Shown one piece after another: positions 7,501-38,800 of a stretch of 64,000 nt of DNA. How positions within the stretch are numbered: position 1 is the first letter of the stretch; every line of letters begins with the position of its first letter. This stretch comes from Mya arenaria. Taxonomy: Eukaryota > Mollusca > Bivalvia > Myida > Myidae. The position numbers and the translations under genes were made by a program. Location of the stretch: positions 18,345,715 through 18,409,714 of the forward strand of contig NC_069136.1 of assembly GCF_026914265.1 (NCBI RefSeq), given 5' to 3'. The notes beneath the pieces were generated by a model. It ran no database searches and was not told the DNA's origin. It was given only the letters and a program-made list of their open reading frames with translations.

Positions 7501-10500
7501 CGTGCCAACGTTGGTCACTCAGTGAAAATTGTCATAACGTTTTTCACAATCGTTGTAAAATATAGCATGTTTAATGAATTCATATATGATGGCATTAAAA
7601 TTCGATTCGATAAAATAAATCCACCTTCTTTAAATGTCCGGTATCGTACGACGCACGGATACAAGGCGATTTAAAGTTTTTAAAATGCAACAATGATTTT
7701 GCTGTTTATTTGTTCGTGAAGGTGCGGAAACGTGTTTCCAATATCGGATGTGGCAGTTGAGACCCCCGGAACCATGTGATCTTCATAAATAAGATATAAG
7801 TGGCTTTCTACAAGTTGTGTTTTCAAAATTTACTTTATATTACGACATGATGTCAACATTTTCCTGTTTTCCTCCAGGTACGGAATCGTAGCTCCGAGAT
7901 CGGATGTGACAGCTGCGACCCCCGGAACCGCGCCACCCACAGATGCAAGGAATGTGACGAGTTCCTTTGTGGAGCATGCACGGAGGCGCACAAGAGGACC
8001 AAGGTCACCAAGGGTCATAATGTCCTAAACGTGGACTCCCTCAAGAGGTAGATTGTAGTGTTATATTAAATAAATATCATTCTAACCTTGTGTCCAATAA
8101 TAATATAAGTAACTCTATCATAGATTTCATTTCATGTTGGCGACATTTTGTTTTATTCATTGCTACAAACAAATACCAAATAATTACTGACAGAAACTTA
8201 GTTTAACTCACGCCTTTAATCTTCAATTTTTAAAATATGTTACTAGAGCTTTTCGGCAAAAAGATTTAGTATCTGTCATTTTATCATAATTAAACATATT
8301 AATAACAAAATAACTCTTATTTCAGCTTCTTACGATACACGCAGCTTCTGCATATTACACACAAAATGAAAATGTCTGATGTATTTAACAGAGTACCCTT
8401 ACAGCTGAAATTTCTTTTGTTATTCACATTAACGCTTTTGTAAACTACTTGTACAAAGGTAAGTGTTGGAACATATTAATTTCAGCTTGGCCAGGCCAAA
8501 TGTAGAACTGCAATCCCATTTGACAAAATATTGTTATCCCCTACTACAGGCTGAACTTGGACGAGTTTCACCACAAGCGGACCTGCACTGTTCCCGACCA
8601 CGAGGATCAGCACTTCAGCTTCTACTGTTACAGGTAAAAGGGTATATGTTTGTTTGTTGTTGCTTTTCTGTTGAAGGAATTCCTTTCTTGGATTTTCTTG
8701 ACCTTTTTCCATAAAAAAATTTATTGGTGATATTCGGACAGTAGAAAGTTGTTCATTTTGTAATTTTGTTTAAGGATTCCCTGACGTTATTCTTGAGTTA
8801 ATGTCCATTACTAGACTAGAACCGGACACGACAACACTCACACGGAATTAAAATGATACAGAACTCTGTGAATTTTGTTTAAACTTCCAATGACTCAGGT
8901 CGTGGATGAGGTATTATTGAATCTCAGAAAAACATGTGAAAAATAATGTTTATAACCCTTTAAAACGGTGTTGATGTTGTTTTCACAGACACAAAAACAC
9001 AATTTTCTGAATGGTTGTTTAATCATAGGATCAGTGATATGCATGTTGATAAATATTCGTATTTCGCTTTCCCTTTAGTAAGGGTTGTGACCAGCCGATC
9101 TGCTCACTATGCGCGGTCACGGAGCACAACAAGGCGGACGGCCACGACATCCGGAACATCAACGACGTCTACCTCGAGAACAAACGAGTCGTCGGTGAGT
9201 GGAATTTACAGCTTGTTATTTCCTGTTCCTTCGTGGTCTTTACTTAATGTTTCGCATACCGTAGCGTCATTGACAAAGTCTAATTTAAAACGAACAATTG
9301 TCGGATGGCTTAAGTGGTGGCAACGTATTTCTGTATTTTGTTTTTATTGAAACATCCGTTGTTTTTTACATTTTTATTAAGTCAAAAATCGCTACCTCGA
9401 ATTCGTTGGGATCTCGGGAAATATTCGAGATAACCAACATTCGATATATCCGAAATACAAAACACGTCGAACGAAACCCAAAATGTTTGAGAAATAAATC
9501 GACATAACCGGAACATCTAGATAACAGAGTTTGACATAGCGAATTTCTACTGTACTATGAACAACAACTGTCAACTAGAAATGCAGATTGTTTCTGTTCA
9601 ACTCAGAACCATATTATCACTCAGCCACACGCTGTGTCGCCTTTAACGTTAACAAATCCCATTCCTATCGCTGTGGTATGTTGCAGAGAGCCTGTTGATA
9701 GACGTGAAGCACAAGCGGGGCCAGGCGGAGGAGGCGATACAGAGTATAGAGGAAGAAATACAGAACCTCTATATCAAGGTAACTAAGTCAGGGGTCGGGG
9801 TAGAGGGTGGCGTACGGGCCATTGGGGAGGATCAGGGTGGTGGAGGTTATACTGAATATGAAGGATGAAAAACTGAAACTGTAAACAAAGGAAACTTTTG
9901 GAGGGGTCGGGGTAAAGGGTGAAGGACTGGGGCGATTCAAATTATAGAGACGGAAATACAGAACCTTTATATCAAGGTATTGTGGGAAGGGGTCGGGGTA
10001 GAGGGTGAGGGGCCGGAAGTATGGATGGTTGGAAAGGATTATGGTTGAGGAGGCGATACTGAAAATAGAGTAGGAAATACTAAACCTGTACATCAAGATA
10101 ACTTAGTCAGGGGTCGGGGTAGAGCGTGAGGGAAAGAGTTTGACTTTTGGAATAATTATTCAGCTCCGGGGATATTTATAAGCGGAGGTGGCCATATAGA
10201 CAATAAATAAACACGGATTTTGTGCTTTAAGGTATTCAGATATGTCTTTGGAATGAAGATGGGTTATGGAATAAGTGCCTTATACGTTTATCGTACCTTG
10301 TCCGTATCGTAAATTTCACCTTTTCGTCCCCCAGGAGTCATCGACGGACGAGGGAATCGACCAAGCCTGATTAATTCGTACCTTATTTGTAGGGCGGACG
10401 CGCAGATTAGTGTTCCTGGCGTACCATTACTGGCCCTCATTTTATGATCCGTTTTTGTTTCATTTTTGTTTCATACCATGTATATTTATATACAGTGTCT

Positions 10501-13500
10501 GTTTCGTACCATGTCGTTTCGTACCATCTTATATTCGTCCCACAGGAGTCGTCGACGGACGAGGAGATAGACCAGGCGTTCTTGGCGTGCCAGAAGCAGC
10601 TGGAGAAGCGTAAAAACGAGCTGAAGGAGAAGCTGGCTGCCACCTCAAAGGCAAAGAAGAAGGGCATGGAGTCCCAGCTGGACAAACTCATCGGCGAGAA
10701 AAATGCTCTCGATCACTCCGCGCGGTTTTCCAGTAACGTCCTCGGTTACAGGTGCGTACCGAATTTGTTAGTACTTTATTCTTTATTTATTATTAACTGG
10801 TACAGAGGGAGAGTAAGGCCACGCCAAATTAACGGATTTACCGGAACAAATTTTCAGAAAATGTAAACAAAATGTTTCATTTATTTTAATGACCACTCGC
10901 ATTTTTCGCCAAAAAAAATAAATCAAATGCCTAACAGCGTTGTCTTTTGAAGCCAGGATTATCATTCTTAGTCTTAAGTATAGCGAAAACAAATTGTTTC
11001 ATTATCACCCCCTCTGTTTTTAAGCAAAATGACAAACTTTTATTCTCTCGCTCTCTGTATTTGTTCTCGACCAAAATCAATAGGACAAACACTTAATTCA
11101 TGTTTCCTACAAAGAGCTAAACATATATGTGTTAGTTATGTTAATCACCTTACAGTGACGCTACAGAGTTTCTGCAGATGAAAGACGCGTTATTCTCGCG
11201 GCTTGGTGAACTTAAGGAGCTGGAGGTGGACCAGCGGCCTCACAACAAGGCGGACATCAAGTTCCACGGACACAAGATGATTGACGCCTTTCAGAAATTT
11301 TCCAACAAGATGGGTGAGGTCTGGTCCACTACGGCATTCATACCCAACACCAAGGTTAGAGTCGAACGCTTTGTTGTTTCCTCTCTTTTTTCTTATAAAA
11401 TCATAACAAATTGTTCAAGAACTTTGTTTTTGTTACATTCCCCTGGAGAGTATTTAAAAAAATAAACGAGCAGTTTTTTCAAAAATTAAAAAATGGCCCA
11501 CTTTTTTCAACAAAACACGACGCCGTTTTTCCCGCGAAAAATGACGTTATAGACAAATTTAAGATAAAAAACGTAAAACAAGAGAAAGAAAAATATATGT
11601 GCGTAAACGTTTTCACAAGACGCACTTGAGGTTGAAATTTCATAGCGGTTAACGAAGAATTGATGAAAATATCGGTTTAGCTGGAACACAAAATTAGGAC
11701 AGACGTCTCAAAATTGACGTCAGTGGCATATTTTGAAGACTCGTTGTTTCAAAGCTGTTCCGAATATTGAATAAGGAAAAACAGTCCCTAACTGGGCATA
11801 TGCTCTTCTATTCGTATACCAATTTTCAGACATTAACTCGAAAAATTGCTCATAGTCGCGTTCCACTTTAAGAGATACGTGGCCACAAATCACCCAGTCA
11901 ATAAGGTGACAAACTATCGCTTATATGTTTAATCTGTTCTCTGGCATATTTATTTACCTACAGGAAGTAAAGAACACGTAATTACACAGTGAATGAATGC
12001 AAACGATTTTAATACAAACCTGTACTGACTCCATAGCGTATGCATCACTAGTCAAACCCCATACTTCAGATCCAGACGTACGATATCGGGTTGGGGCGTG
12101 AGGAGACCGCCATGATGATTACGCTGCATGACTACGAGAGGCGCCCCCTGGCGGAACCTGGAGTGGACATTAAGGTCGATGTCACCAACCCTATGGGTAA
12201 GAAAGCCCGCGCCCACGTCATCGACCTCACTGATTCAGAGGGAGCCTACAAAGTCATATTTCAGGTAAGCTACTTTAAGTATAAAACATTATAGGTTTGT
12301 GTTTACTTCTGAGCATGTCTTTGTAGTTTTAATGTTGCAGCAGGTCATAGACCAATCAGGTGGCTGGGCTTTGAAATAATTAAAAGTATCTTTAACATGT
12401 TGACGGTCTAGTCAAAGATGGGAAGCCAAGATGAAGTTTTGTTTTATTTTCTCTGCTTTTGTAAAATTGTTCATCTTGGTCAACATGTAAATAGGTTGGA
12501 ACTCACACGGAAACTGTTGTACTTTTTGTAGATGGCTCAAAATTCATATCGTGTATGTTGTTGATTATTTCAGGGAGTAAAACTTGGCGATCATCGTGCA
12601 AGCGTCTTCATCATGGGACTTCCGGTGATCGACCCAGGGGTCACGTTCAAGGTCAGACGGCAGACGGACCTAGAGACGGATGTCCTCAGTACGTACAAAG
12701 AAAGATAACTCGTAGCAATTGTACTCGGACAAATTGTGCACACTTAATAAATCTGAGATAAAATATAACTTAAAGCTGCACTCTCAGAGATTGAACGTTT
12801 TGACAACTGTTTTTCTTTTTTTTTTTGGCTTGGAACGAGCCAAGTTTTTTGAAAATCCATGGAAACCAGTTATTTAAAACTCCTGACAAAAATTGATGTT
12901 TAATGCATTTTTCTTACACCGTTATTAACTGTTTCAGCCATAAAACATTATTTTTGGAACGGAAATATGAAAATCTAAGATCTGATTTTTGTCAGCAATC
13001 TTATATCATCTGCAGATATTTACGCCAAAAAAAATGCTCTTTCCAAGACAAAAAAAAAATAAAAAGTTGTAAAAAATGATATATCTGTGAGAATGCAGCT
13101 TTAAGCATTATTAATTCCATTAGAATGTATTGTACACAATCACTGCCGGAGAGGTTCCAGCTGTATTCACAATCGAACTACAATAAATGAATTAGTAATA
13201 AAAGAAACATAATAATAAATTTGTCTCGGGGTATTGTTCGGGAGGATTTTGATCGGGTGTTTTTGTTTAGGGAGATTTTGTCAGGGGGATTTTTTCCGGG
13301 GACACTTTGTCCTACACTCCTCACATTATGTAAAGCAAACATGTGTATTAGTCCGCCCTTTTTGTCCCACAGGAGACTACGAGCCAGCGGACAAGGAGAG
13401 CGGCCCTTTGTCCAAGGTCAAGGCCAAAATCGACTCAGGTAGGGATATAAGGATTACCGATTAGTCGTACAAACAAAAAGTCGTACAACAACGAAGTCAG

Positions 13501-16500
13501 ACCATATTTTGAGAAGTTGCCTTTTTATGTATGTTACAAAATTAACATTATCGAAGAAAAGATAGAATATTTGCCCGTGAAATTTAAAGTTTAGGACACC
13601 CATCAGAAGTCCGAATATGTTACCAATTGCCTTTTATTCCATCATATTGTTGTTCACATCTAACCAATACATCATACATGGGACGACCCCACCAAATCTG
13701 GCCTGACTATGCGTTGGTACAACTCCTGTACCCAGCGCTGTTATTGTAAAAATGATGTCGGAAAGCTTATGTTCAACCTTCAACCATCTTTTTCTCATAA
13801 TGAAGCCATGTACTATCACTCGGAGAACATTCGTAACATTCAACAGCTCTGATGTCTATGACATCTATTCATATTCATTTTATCTTCGTTCGTTGTGTCT
13901 TTCTTCTAACCATCTCGACATTCTGCAAAAACTTATCAATGATACAATAAGTGTAGACATTGTATATTGTAACGGGGGACAGTAGAAGACAACCCAAGTG
14001 TTTAACATAATAGGTTTGACTATTCAAGTGCGTTTATATGTGACGTTAAATGCTACTGGCCATTTAGAATGAAAAAGGGGTGGGGGACGGGGGGGGGGGG
14101 GGGCGCCAGGGAAATACTTCGAGATAATGAACAATGGATATAACATAAATAGACAAAGGGTATAACTAAAAACTAATAGAAATCGAAAAAGTTCGTTATA
14201 ACTAGAAGACCGAGATAACGGAGTTCGACATAGCGAGTTTCTGTTGTCTTAAGGTGAAAATTGCTAACAACAATCCATCTTTATTCATTAAACAATTTAC
14301 TCGGAAATGACAAAATGGGGGAGAGGAGAATTTTGCCATTCACCCAACTTAATGACTGTTTTCCTTTTAAACCATTATTTCCTTCTACACTGTCCAAAAG
14401 GCTATGCCAAAGGCAAGAAGTTACCGCGAAAGCCTGGCATGGAAGCAGACGCTGTTGACACTGACCTTAATCTTTCTGGTATCTGTACACTAACTTCATT
14501 TTCAGACCTGTAGATAGAGGCATTTATAGATGAGCATTGCTGTTGACATTTTTCATCACCGCGACCTAGCTGTACATTTAATGCTTTTTTAACACCGCGC
14601 TTGTAGACAAACTTTTCTCACATATGTATTTATCACTGCACCTAAAGCCCATTTTGCTAACATATGTATTTATCACTACAATTAAAGACTAGCTAATATT
14701 ACTTTTGATTCATCACCGCACTTGTAGCCCAATTTACTCACATATGTATTTATTACAACCATTGTAGCTCATTTTACTCACATATGTGTTTATCACCGAA
14801 CTTGTAGCCCGTTTAACAAATCACTGCATTTGTATCCCATTTTGTTCACATATGTATTTATCACCGCACTTGTAGCCCATTTTGTTCGTATACGTGTTTA
14901 TCACTGTACTTGTAGACCTTTTTGTTCGCATATGTGTTTATCACTGCACTTGTAGCCCATTTTGTTCGCATATGTGTTTATCACCGCACTTGGAGCCCAT
15001 TTTGTTCGCATATGTGATTATCACTGTACTTGTAGACCTTTTTGTTCGCATATGTGTTTATCACTGTACTTGTAGACCTTTTTGTTCACGTATGTGTTTA
15101 TCACTGCAATTGTAGCCCATTTTGTTCACATATGTATTTATCACCGCACGTGTAGCCCATTTTGTTCACATATGTATTTATCACCGCACGTGCTGCCCAT
15201 TTTGTTCACATATGTGTTTATCACTGCAATTGTTTCCCATTCTGTTCACACATGTATTTATCACGGCACTTGTAGCCCATTGTGTTCACATATGTATTTA
15301 TCACTGCACTCGTAGCCCATTTTGTTCACATATGTGTTTATCACTGCACTCGTAGCCCATTTTGTTCACATATGTGTTTATCACTGCACTTGTAGCCCAT
15401 TGTGTTCACATATGTGTTTATCACTGCACTCGTAGCCCATTTTGTTCAAATATGTGTTTATCACTGCACTCGTAGCCCATTTTGTTCACATATGTATTTA
15501 TCACGGCACTTGTAGTTTTTTAACACCAGTCTTGTAGACAAACTTTGCTCATGTAAGAATTGCGTGGTTACTGAACTTGTAAACTTATTTTATAATTGCA
15601 TTTTTAAGTTCGGCGTTTTAGTTCCTATTTGTATTACCATAGAGGACAATAATCTTGTTAACGTAGATTAGCTGTCATTTACGTCATAATTACATTACTG
15701 CATTTTAAAGTAATACAATAACTTCCGCTTTCGATAAAAGAATTACTGTTTGGTGTTCCCTTTGATCATCTTACTGAAGAAACGTTTATCATGTATTGAA
15801 TGTTTTCAGGTTTGAAGTTCGACGACGACGATGATGACGGAGTCAGACCGGCCAAGAACAGGAACCGCTCATACCGGGTATTCGGAGATATCATTTGTAC
15901 GTATATCACTTACATTGGGGATATCATCAGTATTTGTACCACTTAGATTTAAGATAGCAAATTAATGCAAATCACTTAGATATGGGATATTAAATGCATG
16001 TATATCACATATTGGGGATATCAATTGTATGTATATCATTTAAACTGGGGATATCATATGTATGAATATCACTTTGATATGGGATATCATATGTGTGTAT
16101 ATCCCTTATATTGGGGGTAAGCATATGTATGTATATCACTTATATTGGGGATATCACTTGTATGTATTTCACGTATATTGGGGATATTCTTATATTGGAG
16201 ATATAATATGTATGTATATCACTTATATTGGGGATATCATATGTATGTATATCACTTATATTGGAGATATCATAATTATGTAAGTAGATCACTTATATAG
16301 AGGATACCATCTTTATCACTTAGATATGGGATATCATATATATGTATATCACTTAGATTGAAGATAGCATATAAATGCATATCACTTAGATATGGGATAT
16401 CATATGCTTGAAATCACTACTGAAACTTATCACTTAGAAAGGAGATATCATCATTATGTATATCACTAAGATTAGATGTATCATATGAATGTATATTACT

Positions 16501-17272
16501 TACATTTGGGATATCATCTGGAAAGTATATGTATGCATAGCGCTAAGATTGAGGATATCATGTATATTTGACGCCTAGATACGGTTTATCATCGAAAATC
16601 GGTCCTGTGATATAAAGTACACATTCTTCAATGTTCACAGGCCCTGACTTTGCGTTCGACCCAGCCACATGTCATCCGCAGAACATGGTGACCGCAGACA
16701 GCCGAACACTGAAGAACGTGCGTGGACGCACGGCCAACATCGGCACGGCTCTTAAGAACTACCGAGGCGCCCTGGGGACGCGCGCATTCGGCCAGGCGGG
16801 GCGGTTTTATTTCGAGGTGGTGGTTTACTTTTTTATAAAGCGGCAACTCAGGAACGACCTCATATTTGAGGTGGCTATCGCCCGGAAGTCTGAGATCGAT
16901 AGGAACTACACGGTCGACGGCTCGCCTTACGCGTGGACGGTGTGCGCCCGTCGTTGCCCGCTGTGCCGTACAGTCTGTCTGATGACGTTCCACAACGGTG
17001 TGCGCCTGTACCATCTCCCGTTGACGGAGAACGCGCCGCCCGGCACCACTCTGCGGACGACCGTCGGGTTCCTCATTGACACGAAAACGAAGCAGTGGTT
17101 TATCGTGGACGCCAAGAACCGCCGCCTTTTCTACCGCTTTAAGAATATCGACACGAGCAAGCCTCTGTGGCCGGTGTTTGGCGCCTACAGCACCGAGTAC
17201 GTGAGCGTCTCCCTGGCGCTCAGGACCGGCAAGGACGTCCAGGCCGTGCCAGACATTCCCTCTGACGTGTGA
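8..17272 (+). CDS. TRIM-type protein with N-terminal extension, RING, two B-boxes, coiled coil, filamin-like and SPRY domains (18 exons)
   Basis: Likely a RING-type E3 ubiquitin ligase of the tripartite-motif class, acting in the cytoplasm with the SPRY domain as probable target binder. That role is inferred from the family. Exons: 8-95, 684-903, 1205-1365, 2257-2468, 2909-3046, 4386-4550, 4779-5006, 7878-8047, 8550-8633, 9079-9194, 9687-9778, 10546-10751, 11156-11354, 12070-12264, 12574-12688, 13373-13438, 15810-15896, 16641-17272. Every junction is GT-AG and every phase agrees, giving 1057 residues and a TGA stop. Domains by residue: unrecognised 1-328, RING 334-376, B-box 1 at 414-450, B-box 2 at 473-511, coiled coil about 528-640, filamin-like 694-797, SPRY 848-1057. 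The ATG at 8 is the first in-frame one visible, but the frame is open to the window edge, so the true start may lie upstream. RING usually sits at the N-terminus in TRIM proteins, so the extension is odd. A separate upstream gene spliced into my model is the main alternative. Confidence 0.82.
96..683. other. Intron 1 of the TRIM-type gene with two CAA/TTG microsatellites
   Basis: Two (TTG)n tracts lie at about 199-252 and 557-617. On the minus strand they read as poly-Gln, but they sit inside an intron with no other coding signal. They are therefore called simple repeats. Confidence 0.75.
1512..1690 (-). mobile_element. Pogo/Tigger-like MITE, reverse orientation
   Basis: About 180 bp bounded by inverted ends beginning cagtcgaa and ending ttcgact, with internal ctcgaggtattttcgcc. 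The same element is found at 51353-51532 and 53893-54075. CAGT-type ends next to TA fit the Tc1/mariner-pogo superfamily. It has no coding capacity. Confidence 0.65.
2469..4385. other. Introns 4 and 5 of the TRIM-type gene
   Basis: Two introns (2469-2908 and 3047-4385) flank the exon 2909-3046. The first contains a T-run followed by a G-run at 2659-2697. The second is AT-rich and holds the inverted-repeat element at 3931-4268. I see nothing else in them. Confidence 0.6.
3931..4268 (+). mobile_element. MITE with TIR-derived internal 36-bp tandem repeat
   Basis: Inverted ends of 29 bp with one mismatch (3931-3959 against 4241-4268) start tatactaatgg. A TA duplication at the borders would fit Tc1/mariner-type insertion. 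Four 36-bp direct repeats occupy 3944-4085, each containing aaaagtcttgtccggt from the terminal repeat itself. The rest (4086-4240) is unique. Confidence 0.72.
4779..5006 (+). CDS. RING-finger exon of the TRIM-type gene
   Basis: The exon lies between ttag and GTGAGT, phase 0 at both ends, and encodes residues 329-404. It contains a C3HC4 RING: C334-P-V-C337, C353-L-H355, C358-x-x-C361 and C373-P-Q-C376. These are all eight expected zinc ligands with normal spacing, so an E3 ligase function is plausible. Confidence 0.93.
5441..6308 (+). CDS. Secreted coiled-coil C1q-domain protein (two exons), nested in a TRIM-gene intron
   Basis: Exons 5441-5699 and 5836-6308 (donor GTATAC, acceptor tctctag, split Gly codon) give 243 residues. 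The first about 21 residues (MAALYLFVVLCSAIVRLKVN) look like a signal peptide, so the product is probably secreted. Residues about 25-80 form a charged coiled coil (EERLQRLESRDRILEDRN), and about 100-236 a C1q globular domain with the signature GVFTAPLAGLYVFSATV and C-terminal SIFCGFLL. C1qDC proteins form trimers and act as lectin-like pattern receptors in bivalve immunity. That role is inferred from the family. The ATG follows agtccata and is the first in frame before the signal peptide. The gene lies wholly within the 5007-7877 intron of the TRIM-type gene on the same strand. Confidence 0.9.
6651..6991 (+). mobile_element. MITE family A copy (ggccattttcca ends)
   Basis: The left end (ttccatcaaaaacaacct) and right end (ggaaaatggccgagg) are inverted. 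The interior matches the copies at 17625-18052 and 33005-33265, for example actcttgg-aatct and ttctactgatgtac. It is AT-rich and non-coding. Confidence 0.68.
7015..7265 (+). mobile_element. tRNA-derived SINE, degenerate
   Basis: It contains a B-box-like gggttcgattctcgg at about 7153-7167, followed by tctgggcgcatg, and the tail motif ccgcgaaacgtcgagactg. It matches the better copy at 7337-7530. It resembles tRNA-derived mollusc SINEs. Confidence 0.55.
7337..7530 (+). mobile_element. tRNA-derived SINE
   Basis: The A-box match tagcgagctcgg is followed by a weak B-box gctttgattcccgg, then the core gttctccggtttcccccac and the tail ctctcgcgaaacatcgtgcc. This layout fits bivalve tRNA-headed SINEs with a conserved core. 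The 3' end is probably near the aaaattgtc after 7525. Confidence 0.68.
7722..7780 (+). pseudogene. Decayed copy of the B-box 1 exon start
   Basis: The sequence from gtgcggaaac to cccccggaaccatg aligns with the start of the real exon at 7878 (gtacggaatc ... cccccggaaccgc). The copy preserves atcggatgtg but turns a zinc-ligand TGC into TGA. It includes the acceptor side and lies about 156 bases upstream, so it is a relic of local duplication. Confidence 0.72.
7878..8047 (+). CDS. B-box 1 exon of the TRIM-type gene
   Basis: Encodes residues 405-460. The ligand pattern is C414-x2-C417, H425-x-C427-x2-C430, C435-x2-C438, H442 and H450, which fits the first zinc-binding B-box of two-B-box TRIMs. 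The exon follows a cag acceptor and ends in the split codon AG|G. A decayed copy of its start lies about 156 bases upstream. Confidence 0.88.
8550..9194 (+). CDS. B-box 2, split over two exons of the TRIM-type gene
   Basis: Exons 8550-8633 and 9079-9194 together encode B-box 2. The ligands are C473-x4-H478, C487, C492, C497-x2-C500, H505 and H511. An intron cuts the domain between residues 488 and 489 at an AG|T split codon. The second exon ends at a GTGAGT donor. Confidence 0.88.
9385..9556 (-). mobile_element. Degenerate pogo/Tigger-like MITE
   Basis: Motifs ctcgaattcg, ttcgagataacc and ataacagagtttgacatagcg recall the TIR-containing elements at 51353 and 53893, but the ends are eroded. 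A similar relic lies at 14108-14255. Confidence 0.4.
9687..11354 (+). CDS. Coiled-coil exons of the TRIM-type gene
   Basis: Three exons (9687-9778, 10546-10751, 11156-11354) encode residues 528-693. The first two are rich in Glu, Lys, Gln and Leu (for example QAEEAIQSIEEEIQ and LEKRKNELKEKLA), which is typical of the antiparallel dimerising coil that follows B-boxes. The third is more mixed and ends in the linker to the filamin-like domain. The intron between the first two carries decayed copies of both neighbouring exons. Confidence 0.82.
9819..10130 (+). pseudogene. Three decayed tandem copies of the coiled-coil exon end plus intron start
   Basis: Copies at about 9839-9925, 9943-10010 and 10048-10130 each repeat the 3' part of exon 9687-9778 and the first intron bases (ggggtcggggtagagggtg). 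The middle one keeps an open frame, IQIIETEIQNLYIK, and a GT after AAG. The last has an in-frame TAG and has lost its GT. Confidence 0.75.
10334..10440 (+). pseudogene. Decayed copy of the second coiled-coil exon start
   Basis: After ccccag, the sequence gagtcatcgacggacgaggg mirrors the real exon start at 10546 (gagtcgtcgacggacgagga). A gap of about 30 bases follows, then gttcctggcgtaccattactgg, which matches the next exon part. In-frame stops make it non-functional. Confidence 0.75.
12070..12688 (+). CDS. Filamin-like Ig domain exons of the TRIM-type gene
   Basis: Exons 12070-12264 and 12574-12688 encode about residues 694-797. The pattern V-D-V-T-N-P ... D-S-E-G-A-Y-K-V-I-F ... G-D-H-R-A-S-V-F-I-M-G-L-P-V-I resembles the filamin/ABP280 repeat, whose core is G-x-Y-x-V then G-x-H-x-V then G-x-P-I. 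In known TRIMs this domain is usually paired with NHL repeats rather than SPRY. The assignment is by motif only. A different Ig-like fold is possible. Confidence 0.6.
12771..13106. mobile_element. Palindromic MITE family B copy (taaagctgcactctcac ends)
   Basis: The ends taaagctgcactctc and gagaatgcagcttta are inverted, and the two halves are near-complementary along their length (a foldback). Other copies are at 33661, 44951, 52821, 53140, 61983 and 63443. It is non-coding and lies in the intron after exon 12574-12688. Confidence 0.8.
13439..14609. other. Left part of a 2.4-kb TRIM-gene intron
   Basis: No coding signal. It contains a G-rich run at about 14075-14105 and a degraded pogo-like relic at 14108-14255 (ataacggagttcgacatagc). 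Confidence 0.5.
14610..15520 (+). repeat. 40-bp tandem array in a TRIM-gene intron
   Basis: About 20 units of 40 bp, of the form ttgttcacatatgtgtttat then cactgcacttgtagcccat. The outer units on the left are more diverged and some carry short deletions. The short open frames it creates are repeat artefacts. Confidence 0.92.
15897..16580 (+). repeat. 33-bp degenerate array starting at the 5' splice site of exon 15810-15896
   Basis: Units of about 33 bp read ggggatatcatatgtatgta then tatcacttatatt. The exon end and first intron bases (ggagatatcatttgtacgta) are themselves a unit, so the array begins at the splice junction and fills most of the intron. Confidence 0.82.
16641..17272 (+). CDS. SPRY/B30.2 terminal exon of the TRIM-type gene
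   Basis: Encodes residues 848-1057 after a cag acceptor and ends at TGA 17270-17272. Visible PRY/SPRY landmarks are FDPATCHPQNMVTADSRT near the start, GRFYFEVVV, the central VGFLIDTKTKQWFIVD and LWPVFGAYS. The cysteine-rich insert VCARRCPLCRTVC between the blocks is unusual for SPRY. The exon is GC-rich against an AT-rich intron. Confidence 0.85.
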
Positions 17273-17624
17273 AACTTGGACAGGTTGAATGTTACATAAT
17301 ATCTGCTTTGTATTACTGGTATGGAGATTATTATTTTGAACGTGTGATAATAATGTATTTACCCGTTTGGCGAAATAATTTAAATTATTTACTTGTTCTT
17401 TATGTTTGTATATGATATGTTAATTTATTTGATCTCAGACTTACCTTGGAATGTGCTATTAAGAATTCTGGCACAGTTTGTTGGTGTGCCTTATAAAACT
17501 GTGACGGAACTCGTTTACAGCAGAAATAATTCCGGGCTGTCAGGTGACATGTTTGTGCTTGAAAGGTAAAATCGTGAAATTAAACACAGTTACAATTATT
17601 TAGATTAGTCGGGCTCAAAAGCAG

Positions 17625-18052
17625 GTGGAACACCTCTGCCAATTTCCATCGAAAGCAACCTTTAATGTATATGGACGGTTTGCGATGTCAGAAATATTTA
17701 CATTTAACTACGCTGCAATAAGATCGCGTAGTAATTTCAATTTAGCAGTTAAAATTTATGACTTTACTCTTGGAAATCTTAACTATTTATGCAAAAATCA
17801 CTTCATTGGCATTGGCAATAAGATCGCGTAGTAATTTCAATTTAGCAGTTAAAGTTTATGACTTTACTCTTGGAAATCTTAACTATTTATGCAAAAATCA
17901 CTTCATTGGCAATCGATTTAAACTAAGTAAAACAAAATACACGTTACAATACTACAATTATTATTTTTATGAAGATTATACGGACTACTTCTTCTGATGT
18001 ACCGTCATACATCCGGATTGTTTACGATGGAAAATGGCCGAGGTGCTTCAAA
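17625..18052 (+). mobile_element. MITE family A copy with an internal 100-bp duplication
   Basis: The left end aggtggaacacctctgcc and the right end ggaaaatggccgaggtgctt are inverted. Two 100-bp direct repeats at 17716-17815 and 17816-17915 differ at very few bases, which suggests a recent internal duplication. It lies about 350 bases past the TRIM stop codon. Confidence 0.75.
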
Positions 18053-18479
18053 TGGCTCAAAAGATAAGTGGTGATTTTTATATGTTCGTGGTTTATTTGT
18101 TAGTAGTATATTACTTCATCGATTTGTAATTTTAGTTTAATTATATTTTATTGCTTTTTGGTGTGTATTTAAATTTCAAGACACAAATTATACACAAACA
18201 GATAATTGGTATGTATTTGACCATTGTTTTTATCATTTTACATCATAATTTAAACTTATAATAATGTGAGATTTTAACAAAACAATCAACTTCAATTTTA
18301 ACAGTATGTGTAATATACAATGTCCGAGTGGATTATGAGATTATTTTTAAAAAAAAATGTATTTTTCTGTTTTATCACCGTTTTTAGATTTGCTGTATTT
18401 AAAGTTTGATGTGATATTCGTTTTTATTATATATTTAAGTGCAAATAAATATTTTAGCCTAGTCTGCTTTGTTTCCATT

Positions 18480-26873: not shown

Positions 26874-26994
26874 ATAAAGACCAATTTGGTATCGGAGAAG
26901 TCAAGTTGAATGTGGTTAAGAAAAATACAATTTTTATTGAGTCATTATTCATCTATATGTTATATATATATATAAGTAGCTAGTACACATTTAT

Positions 26995-27580
26995 TTGATA
27001 AAATATTATTTTTATCTAAATACATCTGGCTTATTGTATTCCTACTACATGGGATCGTATGTCATATATTCTGACGATAATATCATGAAGTCTAGTTTAA
27101 CGCCGACTATATCACGACAAGACGTCAAAATTGGGTCTACTTGTTCACTTATTAAATGGACACTCCGATGTCGGTATACCGCGTTTAACCAAATTTGTCG
27201 ACACACACTTTCTGGCTTATTGTATCACACCAATATGGAAGCGTATATCGTATATGCTGATGATATTATCATGTCATTTTGTTGACTAGTTCACTTTTTT
27301 CTATGGAATCGTATATCGTATATGCTGATGATATTATCATGTCATTTTGTTGACTTATTCTATTGAAGCGTATATCGTATATACTGATGGTGTGCCCATG
27401 TAATACTGTCGATTTGCGTTATGCCGACTTATGTCGACTTCTTCACTCATTAACAAGATATGCCGACGTGTTTTTATGTCGTCTTGTTAAGACAAAATTT
27501 AATTTAAGAAGTGAAGATGTCGACAAATTTAATACACCACGCAATACTTTAGCTAGTCAAGTCGACATCCATTAAAGTTA
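26995..27580 (+). repeat. Short tandem repeat and TCGAC-rich segment
   Basis: At about 27225-27400, three units of about 62-67 bp carry cgtatatcgtatatgctgat. From 27420 to 27545 there are inverted motifs (tgtcgacttcttcact and gaagtgaagatgtcgaca). This suggests a decayed inverted-repeat element. No gene is seen. Confidence 0.5.
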
Positions 27581-27925
27581 CCAACCGGCACTGGTATAAA
27601 TTGTCGACAGATTATCTTTTATCAAGTTTACACAATTATTTGATTGATTAATAGTTATAACCACCAGGGATCAATCAATAAACATTTTGACTTACATTAA
27701 CCAAACAGAAGAACTACGCAATGAAAGTTAGAATGGTCGACGGTTGTGTATCACACGATCTTAACGATATGTTGTGACTTAATAAGGCGGGGTGGGGGCT
27801 TATAAAATGTCAGTGACAACATTGGTGCTTACGACATCCTGTGTAATACGTGGCATTATATGTTCCTACGTCATCAAAACTGTATATGAAATGATATACA
27901 AATATATTACATTCTCTCCTGCTGT

Positions 27926-27948
27926 GCGTGTGCGTGTGCGTGTGCGTG

Positions 27949-28004
<56 letters not shown>

Positions 28005-28010
28005 TGTGTA
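27926..28010 (+). repeat. (TGCG)n / (TG)n microsatellite
   Basis: Uninterrupted tgcg repeats at about 27950-28008, preceded by mixed gtgcgtgtgcg. The Arg/Ala/Cys-rich frames across it are not genes. Confidence 0.95.
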
Positions 28011-28639
28011 CTAACCCCCGCCCCCGCCCTCACCTCCGAGGGGAAAACATCCGTATGTGCATAAGTGGGAGGCATGATATTTACGATTCGTTATTCAATT
28101 GTCACAGATTTGATATAGAGTTAGTTGTAAATCCGGTAACAGGTTCGCGTTGATCGGGCCACAGATCTAATGACAAATCATATGCAACCGCCTGACGTTG
28201 CATTATAGTAAGTGTTTCCATGTTATTTATGACATCGTTTAAAATGTATTATGCTCAAGGCCAACAGCTTAACTCTGAATGGTTAAACTTTATTATTCAA
28301 AAACAGTTGTTATAAACAAATAAAAAACTTTCTATTAGCTAAACAATAAAAGAAATTAATGAAAACAGTCTTTAAAACATCAGGAAGTATGTTACAATAA
28401 CTTCATACTAGTTGTTTTGTTTGATAAGGGTCGATCCACCCTTGAAACTGTTCAAGTTGAAGTTTACAAAAAAGTGTCCTGTCTGGAGATAAGAGTTGAT
28501 AAATTGATATTTTGAAGTATTTGAAACATTTGAAAAGAGCAGTTGACCTATGAATATTTTATAAAATATGAATGAGTATATGTCAGTAATGGAGAGAGCA
28601 CGCATTGATAATGATGATGTTGATGATGATGCCGTTGCC

Positions 28640-28874
<235 letters not shown>

Positions 28875-29084
28875 GGCATATGAGTATATAAAAGACATGA
28901 TTATCGAAAAAACATCGTTTATTTGAATGATAAGAAAAAGAGTATAGAATTGAATTATTAACTAAAATACCAAAGGAAATGAAAACCGTGTTTTTTGTAC
29001 AAACATACAAAGCCAGTAACTTTTATAAAGAGAGCTTTCTCTCGACATCCACTTTACATTGAAAGTGTTGCAAGCATGATAAAG

Positions 29085-29590
29085 AGTACGCAGCAGACGA
29101 GCTTACATGATAAAGTTCAAATAGTTAATAGAACGCTGCAGACGTGTATACATGATTTAGTTCAAAAAGTAAATAGTACGCTGCAGATGAGCAAATATGA
29201 TGAAGTTCAAATAGTCAATAGTACGCTGCAGACGTGTCAACATGATGATGTTCAAATAGTTAATAGTACGCTGCAGGCGTGCATACATGATGAAGTTCAA
29301 ATAGTTATTAGTACGCTTCAGACGAGCAAACATGAAGTTCAAAAAGTTAATAGTATGCTGCAGACGAGCAATCATGAAGTTGAAACAGTTAATCGTACGC
29401 TGGAGACAAGCATACATGATGAAGTTGAAATAGTAATAGTACGCTGCAGACGTGCATACATGATGAAGTTCAAATAGTTAATAGTACGCTGCAGACAAGC
29501 ATACATGATGAAGTTGAAATAGTAATAGTACGCTGCAGACGTGCAAACATGATGAAGTTCAAATAGTTAATAGTACTTCAGGCGAACAAA
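29085..29590 (+). repeat. About 60-bp minisatellite (gctgcagacg units)
   Basis: Nine or ten units of 54-60 bp, each with catgatgaagttcaaatagt then taatagtacgctgcagacg. It stays open for 160 codons on the plus strand because most length changes are multiples of three, but it frame-shifts near 29430 and lacks promoter or splice context. Confidence 0.88.
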
Positions 29591-29799
29591 CATGATATTG
29601 TTCCAATTTTTAAGAGCAAGCACACGTTTATAATTCAGTTTATAATTTTGTATTTTTAAAGTTTTTAAACATTTTCTTTTCTGCAAGTTTGGAAACTTCC
29701 AGGTCTCATATATAAACATTTAAAATAACGTATATATATAGTTATGTAGATATAATTCTAAACTATATCTAACTTTTGAAGCAAAATAAAAGGTCTGGG

Positions 29800-29805
29800 T
29801 TTATT
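29800..29805 (-). promoter_or_regulatory. Candidate poly(A) signal of the 8-exon minus-strand gene
   Basis: AATAAA on the minus strand, about 46 bases past the stop codon, inside an AT-rich stretch. This is the nearest canonical hexamer in the expected place. Confidence 0.5.
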
Positions 29806-29850
29806 TTTCTTTGCGTTAAACATTATTCGATGTTAGATGTAGATATATCT

Positions 29851-32800
29851 CTATAATGTCCAGAATATCAGAAGGGAAGCCATGATGACGTAAGCGGACG
29901 CCATGATGTTCGCACATGCGTCGCAGTACAAGTCGAACACGTGACCATTACGTATGTTTGCAGCCAACATATAGATCCTGGATACGTTCTCCTTACTTTC
30001 GTTCACGTTGCATTCGGTGATAAACTCGTCGGCACAGCTATTTCGTCTGGAAAACATTCAAAATCAAAAGTCAAGCTGACAAATACGCATTAGCGTAATA
30101 ATATTTTGACAGGTCAAAGTTTTTGTCATACCAAAGAAACCCGAAATTGAAATGAAAACCAAAGAGGGGTAGGGGGTGAAGGGGTTAGGCATTGATCTGC
30201 ATAATCCCAAATTGACCATAGCTACGCGCCTGAAAGTACTGATCAATAATTTGTATTATGCATTTTTCCTCTTTTGAATATTTGATGGACGTTCTGTAAA
30301 TAAAATGCTGAGTCCTATATTTATGGAAAACTATTGGACTAATATATATTCGTAGTTCAGAACCAGATCTGAGACCATATATACAACCTCTAACAGGTTG
30401 ACTTTCAATAATAAGATTTTTAGTAGATTGTACCATAGGCGGAAGTATAAGTCATTGATCAGTGATTGTATACCACGTGATAAATTACGACACAAATGAT
30501 AAGTCGGAATGAGATAATTTGCTTCGAATGAAGACTTTAAACAAAGATAACTTTACAATTTATCACCATATTAAATTATATAACTTTTCTTGAACACTTT
30601 GACAAACATTTCCACACCACTGCTACCTGAATGTCAACAATATTTTTGAAACAGGTTTGTCGAAGTGTTTGAGAAAACATAGAAACATAGAAAGCATAAA
30701 GCCTTTGTTTTATTTCAAATGGTGAAGAAAAAGAAAATTTATCTTTGTTTTAAGTCATCATTTGAAATAAAATGTTGCTTTACGACCTAGCATTTATGAC
30801 GTAATTTTATTGGGATGAAGAACTTCACCTTTCCTGACTGATACTGCTACCTATATGGATTGTACGGAATGTCGTTAGTGTCATCGCCTATGAATGTGTT
30901 GATCTGAAACGCCATACTCGATAGTACGATGATGAAAACGCGAAATCATGAAACTACGATGGTGAAAACGCGACATTTGACATAGGCGATGGCCCTAACG
31001 GCATTCCGTAGAATTGTACAGGACAAGCTAAATTGCCAGGTGTAACTGACACTAGACTAACGGTGTTTGGATACAGTCAGCAACAGTAAACATGTGGTCG
31101 ACCGAGGTTATAATTTTCGTCAAGAATCCTAGTAGTGTGTTGGTACCTAGGAGCTATTTAAAGGGACCTGTTCTTGCTTTTGGGCCAAAATTGTTTTCAC
31201 AGTAATGCATCTGAAAACACAAATATTATAATTGCTGCAGTCTTTGAAACCGAGATTGTAGATAAAAATACAAGGAATATGTAAACGAATGACCCAAATA
31301 CCTTAAACGGGAATTCTCACGATTTTGTCATAACAACAGGGCCCATATGCAGTCAAACCTTCAGTCTGAGTTTGAGACTTAGACTCAAAAACATGAAATT
31401 TAATAATAAAAAAAGTCATAAATATCACTCCTGTTGCCAAAAGGCGAATATATTGAAGTAAAACTAGTCATACATAAATATATATAACATACACCGCAGT
31501 TTTTAACACCAATGCTTTTTTTTACATCATTATTTTACTGGAAAATCAAGATGTGCAGTTTTGAGGGTCAAACTCACACTTAAGGCGTTAGTGAATATAG
31601 ATCCAGGAACTCTAGCAACTTTAATTAGGAAACTGTTAATTAATTGCTAGATTTTCATCCCCGCCCGACGTCTCTTTATATTCCGCCGCCCTTAAACTTT
31701 ATTGACTCAAATAAAAATGTTGAACTAGGGTCTGTATTTGCGTATCGGTCCGGTACTGTCCGGGAATGTTCGGTACTGTCCGGGAACGTCCGGTACTGTC
31801 CGGGAACGCCCGGTACTGTCCGGGAACGCCCGGTACTGTCCGGGAACGCCCGGTACTGTCCGGGAACGCCCGGTACTGTCCGGGAACGGGGTTTATTTAT
31901 ACCTACGGTGTGTATGTATAACATTCACATGTGAAAAAGGATAATTGTTACGAATATGTTCGTGGTTCGTCTAGAAACAAATGTATATGGTCCATAGTGC
32001 AATAAGAAAGAGCGTGAACACGGTGAAACAGTCATCTTAGGTAATTAAAAAATGTATTACCTCGCCCCTATTTAAAAGGATAATGGATGGAAATCTAGCA
32101 AATTATTGATATTGGCCTAACAACCACGTACCTGCATCTCAGATCCGCCATGTCCTTGTCACTGTCGCTGATGGCGGTGTAGTCACGCTGGGCGTTACTC
32201 ATACACAGCTTGAACTCCGGACTGCTGGACTGGAGGAACTTGCAAGACAACCCATCTAAAAACAGGGAGGAGAAGACAACGAGTATCTTTGTGAACATGT
32301 CCATCAAATGCTACGCTTATGATTCAAGGTAAACATATCCAATCGAGTTTAAAATAATGCAATAATCTTGTAGGCGTTTTCAGGATAAGGGGTGCATTTA
32401 GTGGTTGATGCAATATAAGACGTTCGACGCTTCCTCCATGAACCGAAACAACAAGGTCTTAACGTGATATGGGGAGTTTTGGGGACCTCCGTAAAGAACA
32501 TTTTGACTACATTTTGTCTTTGCTTGATCATTTAAGTAAAGTATTTGAATACTTTTCTCCATATCAGTTTGAAAGCCGAATTAAGACAATTTTACGAGTA
32601 CTCCAAACCGCTTGACTCGCTAGTGAATCAATAACTCGATCGATTGATCGATCAATTAATTGATTAATCGAATAGTTATACTTAGTTTTATTCTTATACC
32701 TAAAATGTTTGTATGAATAACAATGCAAGCTACTCAAAACACGACTGAAGAAAAACATCGTTATGAAATTCCGTTTTGAGTTTTAACAAATAATCGTTCA

Positions 32801-35800
32801 TATTGTACCTGTGCGTATTTTGTTACAACTGTCCATCTTTAAGGCGAGCAGGCTAGTCAATGTGAAACGGTCATAGTCCACAGCATCTCCGAAAGGCTTA
32901 TCAGTTACGTTTGCCTTACACTTGACCCAGCCTGATATCACCTCCGTGGCCATATCGAAACTGAAAAAGGGGATGCTACTCTGTTTAGCCTTAAAATATG
33001 GCATTTGGAACACCTCGGCCATTTTCCATAAAAAACGACCTCGGATGTATGCCGGTACATCAGTAGAAGTAGTTCGTATAATTTTCAGTATGGTAGTGTA
33101 GTGTTTTAACGTGTTTGATGTATTACTTAGTAAATTGAATGCCAATGAAGTGTATTATTGCATAAGTAATTAAAATTTCCAAGATTTCAGTCATTGTGTT
33201 TAACCACGCGATCTACTTGAAGTGCAGTTAAATGTAAATATTTCTGACATTGTAAACCGTCCGGAAACACATGATGGATACTTATATTCCAGCAGGGGTC
33301 ACATGACCGGAAACACACGTCCGGTATGCAAGAAAAAGTGCACTGTTATTTGTCTGCTTGTACATCAGATTCGAATCGTATGTAACTAGCTTCATAATGT
33401 ATTTTTGCAATTGAGAAGACAGGTATTGAAACTGAAAAACAGTTATACTCATAGTAGTCTAAACCAAGTTGTCGTAAAAATACAATAAACACTTCAGACC
33501 CCGATTTCTCGAAACTTCTAAAGCTTAACAGGCTTAAGTTTAATTTTGAAGAAAACTAACGATGTTTTAGCACAAAAAATATTAAAATATGCAAGAAGAA
33601 AATTGCATATCAATAATAATAATAATTTGATAGAAATATATGGTATTTCAAAATTCATTGTTAAAGCTGCACTCTCACATATATACCATTTTTACAACTT
33701 TTTTATTTTTTTTTTGTCTTGGAAAAAGCATTTTTTTTGCGTAAATATCTGCAAACCAGTGATACAAGACTGCTGAAAAAAAGAGAGTAGATTTTCATAT
33801 TTCTGGTCGAATATTAATGTTTTATGGCTTACTAAAGGTTTAAGAAAAATGCATAAAACATCAATTTTTGAATTTAAATATAAAAATCTGCGATCTGCTT
33901 TTTTCTTAGCAGTCTTATATAACTGGTTTTCGCCAAAAATGGCTCGTTCCAAGACAAAAAAAATAAAAAAAGTTGTCAAAACGTTCAATCTGTTAGAGTG
34001 CAGCTTTAAATATTTTGAAATTTTCAAAAATGGCTCGTTCCAAGACAAAAAAATAAAAAAAGTTGTCAAAACGTTCAATATGTTAGAGTGCAGCTTTAAA
34101 TATTTTGAAATTTTCACTAAGTTATAATAACTACATACGAAGGCTGATTTCTGCGGGAGAGAGAGAGACTGGCTTTCAACTAGTTGTACTTACAACGTGT
34201 CGGGGAGATGACATATGTACGAGATGTTGCGCGAGAGAGTGGTTTTCTACTAGCTATACTTACAACGTGTCGGGGAGATGACATATGTACGAGATGTTGC
34301 GCGAGAGAGTGGTATTCTACTAGCTATACTTACAACGTGTCGGGGAGATGACATATGTACGAGATGTTGCGCGAGAGTGTGGTTTTCTACCAGCTATACT
34401 TACAACGTGTCGGGGAGATGACATATGTACGAGATGTTGCGCGAGAGAGTGGTATTCTACTAGCTATACTTACAACGTGTCGGGGAGATGACATATGTAC
34501 GAGATGTTGCGCGAGAGAGTGGTATTCTACTAGCTATACTTACAACGTGTCGGGGAGATGACATATGTACGAGATGTTGCGCGAGAGAGTGGTATTCTAC
34601 TAGCTGTACTTACAACGTGTCGGGGAGATGACATATGTACGAGATGTTGCGCGAGAGAGTGGTATTCTACTAGCTATACTTACAACGTGTCGGGGAGATG
34701 ACATATGTACGAGATGTTGCGCGAGAGAGTGGTTTTCTACTAGCTGTACTTACAACGTGTCGGGGAGATGACATATGTACGAGATGTTGCGCGAGAGAGT
34801 GGTATTCTACTAGCTGTACTTACAACGTGTCGGGGAGATGACATATGTACGAGATGTTGCGCGAGAGAGTGGTATTCTACTAGCTGTACTTACAACGTGT
34901 CGGGGAGATGACATATGTACGAGATGTTGCGCGAGAGAGTGGTATTCTACTAGCTGTACTTACAACGTGTCGGGGAGATGACATATGTACGAGATGTTGC
35001 GCGAGAGAGTGGTATTCTACTAGCTGTACTTACAACGTGTCGGGGAGATGACATATGTACGAGATGTTGCGCGAGAGAGTGGTTTTCTACCAGCTATACT
35101 TACAACGTGTCGGGAAGATGACATATGTACGAGATGTTGCGCGAGAGAGTGGTTTTCTACTAGCTATACTTACAACGTGTCGGGGAGATGACATATGTAC
35201 GAGATGTTGCGCGAGAGAGTGGTATTCTACTAGCTATACTTACAACGTGTCGTGGAGATGACCTATGTATCAGATGTTGCGCGAGAGAGTGGTATTCTAC
35301 TAGCTATACTTACAACGTGTCGGGGAGATGACATATGTACGAGATGTTGCGCGAGAGAGTGGTATTCTACTAGTTGTACTTACAACGTGTCGGGGAGATG
35401 ACATATGTACGAGATGTTGCGCGAGAGAGTGGTATTCTACCAGCTATACTTACAACGTGTCGGGGAGATGACATATGTACGAGATGTTGCGCGAGAGTGT
35501 GGTTTTCTACTAGCTATACTTACAACGTGTCGGGGAGATGACATATGTGCGAGATGTTGCGCGAGAGAGTGGTTTTCTACTAGCTATACTTACAACGTGT
35601 CGGGACGATGACATATGTGCGAGATGTTGCGCGAGAGAGTGGTATTCTACTAGTTGTACTTACAACGTGTCGGGGAGATGATATATGTACGAGATGTTGC
35701 GCGAGAGAGTGGTTTTCTACTAGTTGTACTTACAACGTGTCGGGGAGATGACATATGTACGAGATGTTTGCAACCTCCCGGTACAGCCCGTCGGCGAACG

Positions 35801-38800
35801 TGCAGTTTTTAACGGCGGTCGTCTTGTAGCAGGGCGGTGTCATTCCCTGGGGGTTAACAGTTAATAAGACCGTTAGTTTAAATAGGTAAATATTCTACGA
35901 TGTAAAATCACTAAATGAACGTCTTCTAGCACGGTGGCACGGCTCCCAGTGGGAGGGGGTGGGGGGTAAGATGCGTAACGTGGCGTCAAATATATTGAAT
36001 TCTACATTTTTTGTACATCTTCCACAGGGTCGGTATGCGTAGGACGTCTTAATCCATATCCTAACATTAGTCATTTTCTTAAGTAAATCATCTCACTGGT
36101 CATGTGGTAAAATAACTTAATATCATCTGAAAAAACTTAAAGATGCACTCTTACTCCCACATTTGATTTACCACAGTTCATAAAATTGTTTATAATTACC
36201 AGAAAGGATGAACAAATGTCATAAACAATGATTCTCATGAAGGATACTGAGTTTAATTTGAAAGAAAGTTGCAGAAAACACGGTATTTCTAACTTATGAG
36301 ACTATAGTTGACCAAAATAAATCGTTTAGCATTCACCTATCATTTGATATTTTTGCGCTTTCTGTTATTAAATACACGGTTACAATATCAGTAATCAATA
36401 TTTTTCATAAATGCATAATTTAGTAATGTAACCAGGCAAGATCACTGAGTTTGAGTTAAACCTTACCTGAACACACGGAATTGTCTCCCTTATTTCTACG
36501 GTACTGCATGACTGATACCCTGTTCCCGCGCGTACGGTCAGGTAGAAGTTTGCGTTGTTTATATGGGGCTTGATGGTCATAGCCCCTAGCCAAGGGCGGT
36601 AGCAGTTGTCAACTGTGGGGATAGTGTTTAAGGTATATCCCTTCAGATAGTTCAGATAAAAATAAACTACTCAATTTTTCAAAATTAACATAGTATTTAA
36701 ACTGTGAAATTTATATCATTACTGGTGCTGTAAACACACTGACACAGATTTCTCGAAGATTTGAGTCGCATTTTTAAGAATTTATATTTTTAATTCTCAT
36801 TTGTGAGTTGTTCTGTCGTGGTTCAAGGTTCAAATCGGAAAGAAACGTTGAACTGATTTAAATCAGTTGTTGTTACTTACGATGTTGAGTAGGGGTTCGG
36901 ATAAGTTTCCTACGACATTGAGTATTGGAAGATATCGGGGTTATGTTTTGTAATCTAAAAAATATTAGGGGGGGGGGGAGATTTTCTTACCTTCAATATT
37001 TACAAATTGAAGGAAGTGGGGCTATGTTGTGTCACCAATAACACATAGTAATAAAGAAACTGGAGGCGTTGTTTTGTTACCAACAACATGAAGTAATAAA
37101 AGAAAGTGGGGGCTATGTTGTGTTACCAACAACACATAGTAAAGAAAGAAAGTGGGGGCTATGTTGTGTTACCAACAACACATAGTAATGAAAGAAAGCG
37201 GGGGCTATGTTGTGTTACCAACAACACATTACTGAATTTGATGTTGAGTAGGGGTTCGGATAAGTTTCCTACGACATTGAGTATTGGAAGATATCGGGGT
37301 TATGTTTTGTAATCTAAAAAATATTAGGGGGGGGGGGGAGATTTTCTTACCTTCAATATTTACAAATTGAAGGAAGTGGGGCTATGTTGTGTCACCAATA
37401 ACACATAGTAATAAAGAAACTGGAGGCGTTGTTTTGTTACCAACAACATGAAGTAATAAAAGAAAGTGGGGGCTATGTTGTGTTACCAACAACACATAGT
37501 AAAGAAAGAAAGTGGGGGTTATGTTGTGTTACCAACAACACATAGTAATGAAAGAAAGTGGGGGCTATGTTGTGTTACCAACAACACATAGTAAAGAAAG
37601 AAAGTGGGGGTTATGTTGTGTTACCAACAACACATAGTAAAGAAAGAAAGTGGGGGTTATGTTGTGTTACCAACAACACATAGTAATGAAAGAAAGTGGG
37701 GGTTATGTTGTGTTACCAACAACACATAGTAATGAAAGAAAGTGGGGGTTATGTTGTGTTACCAACAACACATAGTAATGAAAGAAAGTGGGGGATATGT
37801 TGTGTTACCAACAACACATAGTAATGAAAGAAAGTGGGGGTTATGTTGTGTTACCAACAACACATAGTAATGAAAGAAAGTGGGGGTTATGTTGTGTTAC
37901 CAACAACACATAGTAATGAAAGAAAGTGGGGGGTTATGTTGTGTTACCAACAACACATAGTAATGAAAGAAAGTGGGGGTTATGTTGTGTTACCAACAAC
38001 ACATAGTAATGAAAGAAAGTGGGGGTTATGTTGTGTTACCAACAACACATAGTAATGAAAGAAAGTGGGGGTTATGTTGTGTTACCAACAACACATAGTA
38101 ATGAAAGAAAGTGGGGGGTTATGTTGTGTTACCAACAACACATAGTAATGAAAGAAAGTGGGGGTTATGTTGTGTTACCAACAACACATAGTAATGAAAG
38201 AAAGTGGGGGATATGTTGTGTTACCAACAACACATAGTAATGAAAGAAAGTGGGGGTTATGTTGTGTTACCAACAACACATAGTAATGAAAGAAAGTGGG
38301 GGTTATGTTGTGTTACCAACATCACATACATGTAGTAATAAAAGAAAGTTGGGGGGGGGGGTATGTTGTGTTACCAACAACACATACATGTAGTAATAAA
38401 AGAAAGTGGGGGGTTATGTTGTGTTACCAACAACACAAAGTAATGAAAGAAAGTGGGGGCTATGTTGTGTTACCAACAACACATAGTAATGAAAGAAAGT
38501 GGGGGCTATGTTGTGTTACCAACAACACATAGTAATGAAAGAAAGTGGGGGTTATGTTGTGTTACCAACAACACATAGTAATGAAAGAAAGTGGGGGCGT
38601 TGTTATGTTACCAACAACACATAGTAATGAAAGAAAGTGGGGGTTATGTTGTGTTACCAACAACACATAGTAATGAAAGAAAGTGGGGGTTATGTTGTGT
38701 TACCAACATCACATACATGTAGTAATAAAAGAAAGTTGGGGGGGGGGGGGTATGTTGTGTTACCAACAACACATACATGTAGTAATAAAAGAAAGTGGGG

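Follow-up and report, generated by a model that had tools for sequence, protein, structure and literature searches.

The window analysed here is a 64,000-nucleotide stretch of the genome of the softshell clam Mya arenaria (C15:18345715-18409714, within the 1.216 Gb and 18 contigs searched). It contains two genes in which locally repeated units run across exon-intron junctions. Gene A (about 8 to 17272, plus strand) is Mya LOC128220080, whose protein P0001 has 1086 residues; the label TRIM45-like comes from the name of a Saccostrea relative, P0006. The predicted gene A product is 97% identical to P0001, a figure short of complete identity mainly because the prediction includes a 26-residue exon, 14401-14478 (plus strand), with no counterpart in P0001; at this position Mercenaria P0003 carries a different insert. 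Gene B (45563 to 29854, minus strand) is Mya LOC128219554, with the 345-residue protein P0008. Its predicted product is cysteine-rich, begins with a signal-like stretch, has a hydrophobic end and would appear to be secreted or exposed at the surface. A protein search retrieved no homologues of gene B outside Mya, and a possible first exon at 52592 shows a weak 11-residue match. Three tandem arrays, one in gene B and two in gene A, have units that each contain a 5' splice junction, as the first-pass annotation had noticed, and two acceptor junctions of gene A are also duplicated.

Array 3 lies in gene B (34163-35768, minus strand), where Tandem Repeats Finder reports 22.9 copies of a 70-bp unit with 96% matches. 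The exon from which it extends had been placed at 35846-35761, an end replaced here by 35734 (exon 35734-35846, minus strand) on the evidence of P0008. The strong donor GTAAGT at 35733 leaves the frame open, and joining through donor 35734 gives ...HLPDTFFDMATEV...; all 334 residues of the query align to P0008 with 100% identity. P0008 puts the next exon at about 32960, and a short last exon of gene B initially supposed at 34150 was discarded on that ground. The array includes 35 coding bases (35768-35734); in each unit a 35-nt coding tail with its donor is joined to about 35 nt of intronic sequence. Counting the exon, there are 23 donor-bearing copies spaced exactly 70 nt apart, and the donor 9-mer GTT/GTAAGT is identical across all 23. 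Units 0, 1 and 22 have the state 'acaact' in common, which is found elsewhere only in unit 5, the rest carrying 'atagct' or 'acagct'; in this single array, the end units show the pattern expected if array ends escape homogenisation.

Array 2 (15879-16592, plus strand) consists of 33-bp units, appears in pieces in the Tandem Repeats Finder list and occupies most of the 744-nt intron 15897-16640 of gene A. Its first, coding copy is formed by the last 18 nt of exon 15810-15896 (plus strand), an exon end backed by Mya P0001 and by bivalve relatives. The exon tail reads YRVFGDII before the junction cysteine, with YRVFGDI(I or V)C in Mercenaria, Ruditapes and Potamilus and GDIIC in Saccostrea. The array holds six GTAYGTA donor-like sites, among which the real donor is the weakest (2.1 vs 3.0-3.9 with approximate splice weight matrices). 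For array 2, and for a 700-nt piece of array 3, a genome-wide DNA search, which passes over very common words, matched only the locus of origin.

Array 1 (9733-10128, plus strand) was founded by the tail of gene A exon 9687-9778 (plus strand), which has an open frame and matches P0001, and whose end at 9778 is likewise backed by P0001 and bivalve relatives. Four 77-nt copies of exon tail plus donor are present, at 9733-9809 (the real exon end), 9845-9921, 9931-10007 and 10052-10128, with spacings of 112, 86 and 121 nt. Relative to the exon copy, the other three show 73, 82 and 84% identity; copies 2 and 4 have lost the donor GT, which only copy 3 retains besides the exon copy. This tail, SIEEEIQNLYIK, appears as SIEDEIQNLYIK in Mercenaria, Ruditapes and Potamilus and as HIEDEIQNLYLK in Saccostrea. 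Taken together, the tails of exons 9687-9778 and 15810-15896 differ by at most one substitution in the first three genera and are looser in Saccostrea.

The intron into which array 1 extends (9779-10545, 767 nt) shows inward copying from both ends. At its far end, the real acceptor junction (10534-10577, plus strand; exon 10546-10751 starts at 10546) has an upstream copy at 10323-10366 (plus strand; 38/44 identical). The decoy acceptor AG ending at 10334 scores 13.2 against 8.3 for the real one with the same approximate matrices, and its use would meet an in-frame stop 11 codons later. A second acceptor junction (7869-7929, plus strand), belonging to the B-box exon 7878-8047, which starts at 7878, resembles an upstream segment at 7713-7773 (plus strand; 79% over 61 nt, spacing 156), chiefly on the exon side. 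Both acceptor cases in the window consist of two copies each, with no long arrays.

These resemblances exceed chance. We aligned 60-mers (45 exonic and 15 intronic bases) from the 33 edges of genes A and B as then known (17 donors, 16 acceptors) to their intronic flanks and compared the scores with 60 dinucleotide shuffles of each flank. Five edges were flagged: donors 9778, 15896 and 35734, scoring 65, 44 and 100 (shuffle maxima 25, 25 and 27), and acceptors 10546 and 7878, scoring 58 and 44 (shuffle maxima 22 and 24). Donor 36467 (23 vs 22) and acceptor 35846 (21 vs 18) were marginally over their shuffle maxima and were left unflagged. The three donor-spanning arrays described by the first-pass annotation, and their similarity to the exon ends, are thus confirmed.

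A wider count, in which an edge duplication was a score of at least 36 within 1.5 kb, covered the window, 24 neighbouring 10-kb loci and five myosin-family loci. Exons came from a self-written finder trained on the genes of the window, which recovers most exons of genes A and B in a partly circular manner and gives plausible myosin exons at the myosin loci; all exons beyond genes A and B are ab initio predictions. Its codon table took in some wrong-frame gene B codons through one mis-set exon start. For the window and neighbours, two predicted exon ends were hand-corrected to 9778 and 15896, exons 14401-14478 and 29870-30046 were added by hand, and weak window predictions starting at 1514, 27870 and 51475 were marked for removal, all of them falling under the cut-off anyway. 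For the myosin loci, one prediction within a repeat open reading frame (L027:3463) was removed, the exon cut-off was 26 vs 28 and the target was the adjacent intron only. Edges with too little flank were skipped in both counts.

Edge duplications were found at 3/30 donors and 2/29 acceptors in the window, at least two of these 'donors' (17266 and 29870) being last-exon ends and not real donors. The neighbouring loci gave 0/29 donors and 2/29 acceptors, both positives lying at predicted exons (L013:3249 and L014:2516, scores 41 and 38), and the five myosin-family loci yielded none (0/43 donors and 0/44 acceptors). The total is therefore 3/102 donors and 4/102 acceptors. An acceptor match at L026:4382 was weak (score 30, under the cut-off of 36) and was excluded. 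A stricter edge test left 2/30 donors and 1/29 acceptors in the window and 0/29 donors and 1/28 acceptors in the neighbouring loci.

Local repetition is itself common in this region. Noncoding sequence contains 30 local direct-repeat clusters in the 58.6 kb of the window vs 42 in the 234 kb around it. Random noncoding 60-mers find a local match in 31-32% of cases within the window, compared with about 10% for the neighbouring loci, figures that include array coverage; when each cluster is counted once by unit length, the rates are 5.2% and 1.7%. Per 10 kb of noncoding sequence, cluster density is 5.1 in the window vs 1.8 in the 24 surrounding loci (L002-L025). Two arrays are counter-examples to an origin at junctions. 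One, with 40-bp units, is entirely intronic (14618-15515, plus strand; Tandem Repeats Finder) and has no match at the edges of donor 14478 or acceptor 15810. Another, 7.3 kb long, is built of 46-bp units (with a 138-bp period as well) and lies in a gene B intron (37010-44285, minus strand); it begins 48 nt past donor 44333 and does not include it. A run of local repeats that appeared to reach exon 44334-44473 proved to be a gapped extension of this 46-bp array, with no copy of the junction.

The arrays are most probably ordinary local tandem duplications across splice junctions, tolerated since the outer copy still splices. In a region rich in such events, a duplicated segment would by chance span the border of an exon with its intron. 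The copy farthest out, at the 5' end in the case of a donor and at the 3' end in that of an acceptor, would stay intact and be spliced, with the sequence between copies becoming intron, so that the duplication would be tolerated at low cost. Unequal exchange or slippage would then multiply the unit, with growth directed from the exon deeper into the intron, while selection would fix the coding copy, interior copies would homogenise and the far-end copy would retain an old state. We infer both the exchange mechanism and the selective neutrality.

That the outer copy is the spliced one is suggested by the annotated proteins together with protein conservation. The outer donor is the one used in these proteins (P0001 and P0008) at all three arrays, and read-through past the real donors meets a stop, immediately in array 3 and within about 16 and 29 codons in the remaining two, so the annotated protein would come from the outer copy only. 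The conservation of the exon tails among bivalves indicates that the exon sequence is older than arrays 1 and 2, and since arrays 2 and 3 match only their own loci, neither appears to have been brought in as a dispersed satellite. The earlier proposal that the arrays start at the real exon edge and spread into the intron accordingly stands, with two of the three tails conserved in bivalves and both of the searched arrays private to their locus. Local duplicates of exon middles were absent (0/60), as expected if selection removes duplications within coding sequence. In this sample, junction copying occurs at both ends of introns and not specially at the front end.

Several points weigh against this account. 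The comparison with other bivalves was made on proteins, and the growth direction of array 3 was judged purely from anatomy, because gene B had no homologue outside Mya in the search. When the 16 listed clusters of genes A and B are placed at random, 0.7-0.8 edge contacts are expected and five are observed (P 0.0002-0.0003). Edge-touching clusters make up 4/6 of those in gene A and 1/10 of those in gene B, and gene A by itself gives P 0.0003-0.0011. The simulation is post hoc, as the window was chosen for these arrays, and its hand-made list (six clusters in gene A, ten in gene B) omits a microsatellite cluster at 195-620 and small gene A arrays at 10496 and 13244. On these figures, a preference for edges of both kinds, whether local or general, is the less likely reading.

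In its general form, such a preference would make both kinds of edge mildly favoured birthplaces of repeats, and growth seeded at junctions a separate way for the introns of this genome to lengthen. We regard this as rather unlikely. The window excess speaks for it (5/16 clusters, P about 3e-4), as do the 7 edges observed in the window and the 24 loci against a founder-length expectation of about 4. However, the window result is post hoc, the Poisson p in the larger sample is 0.12 (founder lengths overstate short periods, placing the expectation behind this value on the high side) and the myosin edges gave 0/87. Slow decay of the coding copy would also keep old edge duplications visible for longer than intronic ones, and slower loss of coding copies could explain the window excess of both edge kinds. 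For the preference for exon borders put forward in the first-pass annotation, the window gives a post hoc excess; the larger sample does not show it, with 2/145 edges beyond the window duplicated.

That annotation had gone further, proposing that satellites arise preferentially at splice donors, for instance by way of R-loops or of slippage linked to transcription. The occurrence of three arrays in two genes and the window excess of edge-touching clusters speak for this, but in this small sample acceptors are affected equally often (Fisher p = 0.72 for donor vs acceptor among the 117 edges of the window and the 24 neighbouring loci), and no donor was duplicated outside the window; a special role of 5' junctions is not supported. 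R-loop-seeded repeats are characterised by a G-rich non-template strand at the junction. The sense strand is clearly G-rich in array 1 (GC skew +0.55), weakly so in the AT-rich array 2 (+0.21) and C-rich, the opposite, in array 3 (-0.32), which argues against R-loop seeding as a common cause. A donor-specific origin is, in our judgement, very unlikely.

Even less probable is that satellites came first and exons were later extended into the repeats. The array 2 exon does end in what resembles a repeat unit, and no other donor-like site of the array scores as low as its donor, but VFGDI(I or V) is kept in Mercenaria, Ruditapes and Potamilus and GDII in Saccostrea, and the array 1 tail is kept likewise; the orthologous proteins rule out an exonised repeat for arrays 1 and 2. 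Chance similarity or an assembly artefact is scarcely credible, for although tandem arrays are difficult to assemble and the copy number may be wrong, the junction scores lie far over the shuffles, the copies show point differences, arrays 1 and 2 have diverged and the units differ at the five junctions.

Two further features were noticed in the window. A gene with a C1q domain (Pfam C1q, E 1.3e-19) is nested on the same (plus) strand in an intron of gene A (5432-6305) and combines a coiled-coil-like exon with a C1q exon. At 47556-49880 (plus strand), an open reading frame of 775 residues contains a reverse transcriptase domain (RVT_1, E 1.4e-39); provided that the weak match placing a first exon at 52592 holds, it would lie in the first intron of gene B.

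The closest known relatives of the clam arrays are mirages, repeats of amphioxus first described by Canestro 2002 (PMC117041) and taken up in PMC3087553 and PMC3902484. The cases concern the genes Adh3, globin and TnC, and PMC3902484 likens repeats of PGBD5 to mirages. As described there, mirages and the clam arrays share a unit that crosses the exon-intron boundary and contains exonic and intronic sequence (PMC3087553), a unit size of 10 to about 160 bp and splice signals that are retained in many copies but not all. The involvement of both 5' and 3' boundaries is shared with the clam duplications, and internal concerted evolution from which end units are exempt is shared with array 3. On these structural features, the clam cases would be classed as mirages. 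They differ in that the host is a bivalve and not a cephalochordate, and in that one clam array has 23 donor-identical copies. Further marks of mirages are length polymorphism between haplotypes, somatic instability and normal splicing from the authentic site despite decoys, assayed by reverse transcription PCR; the clam cases are known from the sequence of one assembly. Literature searches returned no molluscan or bivalve mirage case among the matches listed.

Tandem duplication that includes a splice signal is also the basis of the Rogers model of intron gain by tandem genomic duplication, presented for potato RdRp (PMC4974935) and Drosophila (PMC2891723). In that model the duplication is taken to create a new intron, whereas in the clam existing introns would have grown with the protein unchanged. 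Ordinary intronic minisatellites, which are abundant in the same region, fall in the same size range as the clam arrays. The difference is that part of the clam unit is coding, and this fixes both the founder copy and the way in which the array grew.

These observations place junction-spanning minisatellites in a mollusc, with an unchanging coding copy that gives the arrays a datable anatomy: unlike in ordinary satellites, the coding copy reveals the founder and the direction of growth. They also supply natural tests of splicing, in one intron with 23 identical tandem donors and in a decoy acceptor that outscores the real one. It is conceivable, if at a low probability, that in this bivalve tandem duplication has true hot spots at exon edges of either kind, that its introns lengthen largely via junction copying, that only decoys with an early stop or without a splice site are tolerated and that mirages are general in animals and not an oddity of amphioxus. 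More broadly, the arrays suggest a cheap route by which introns may lengthen while the protein remains unharmed.

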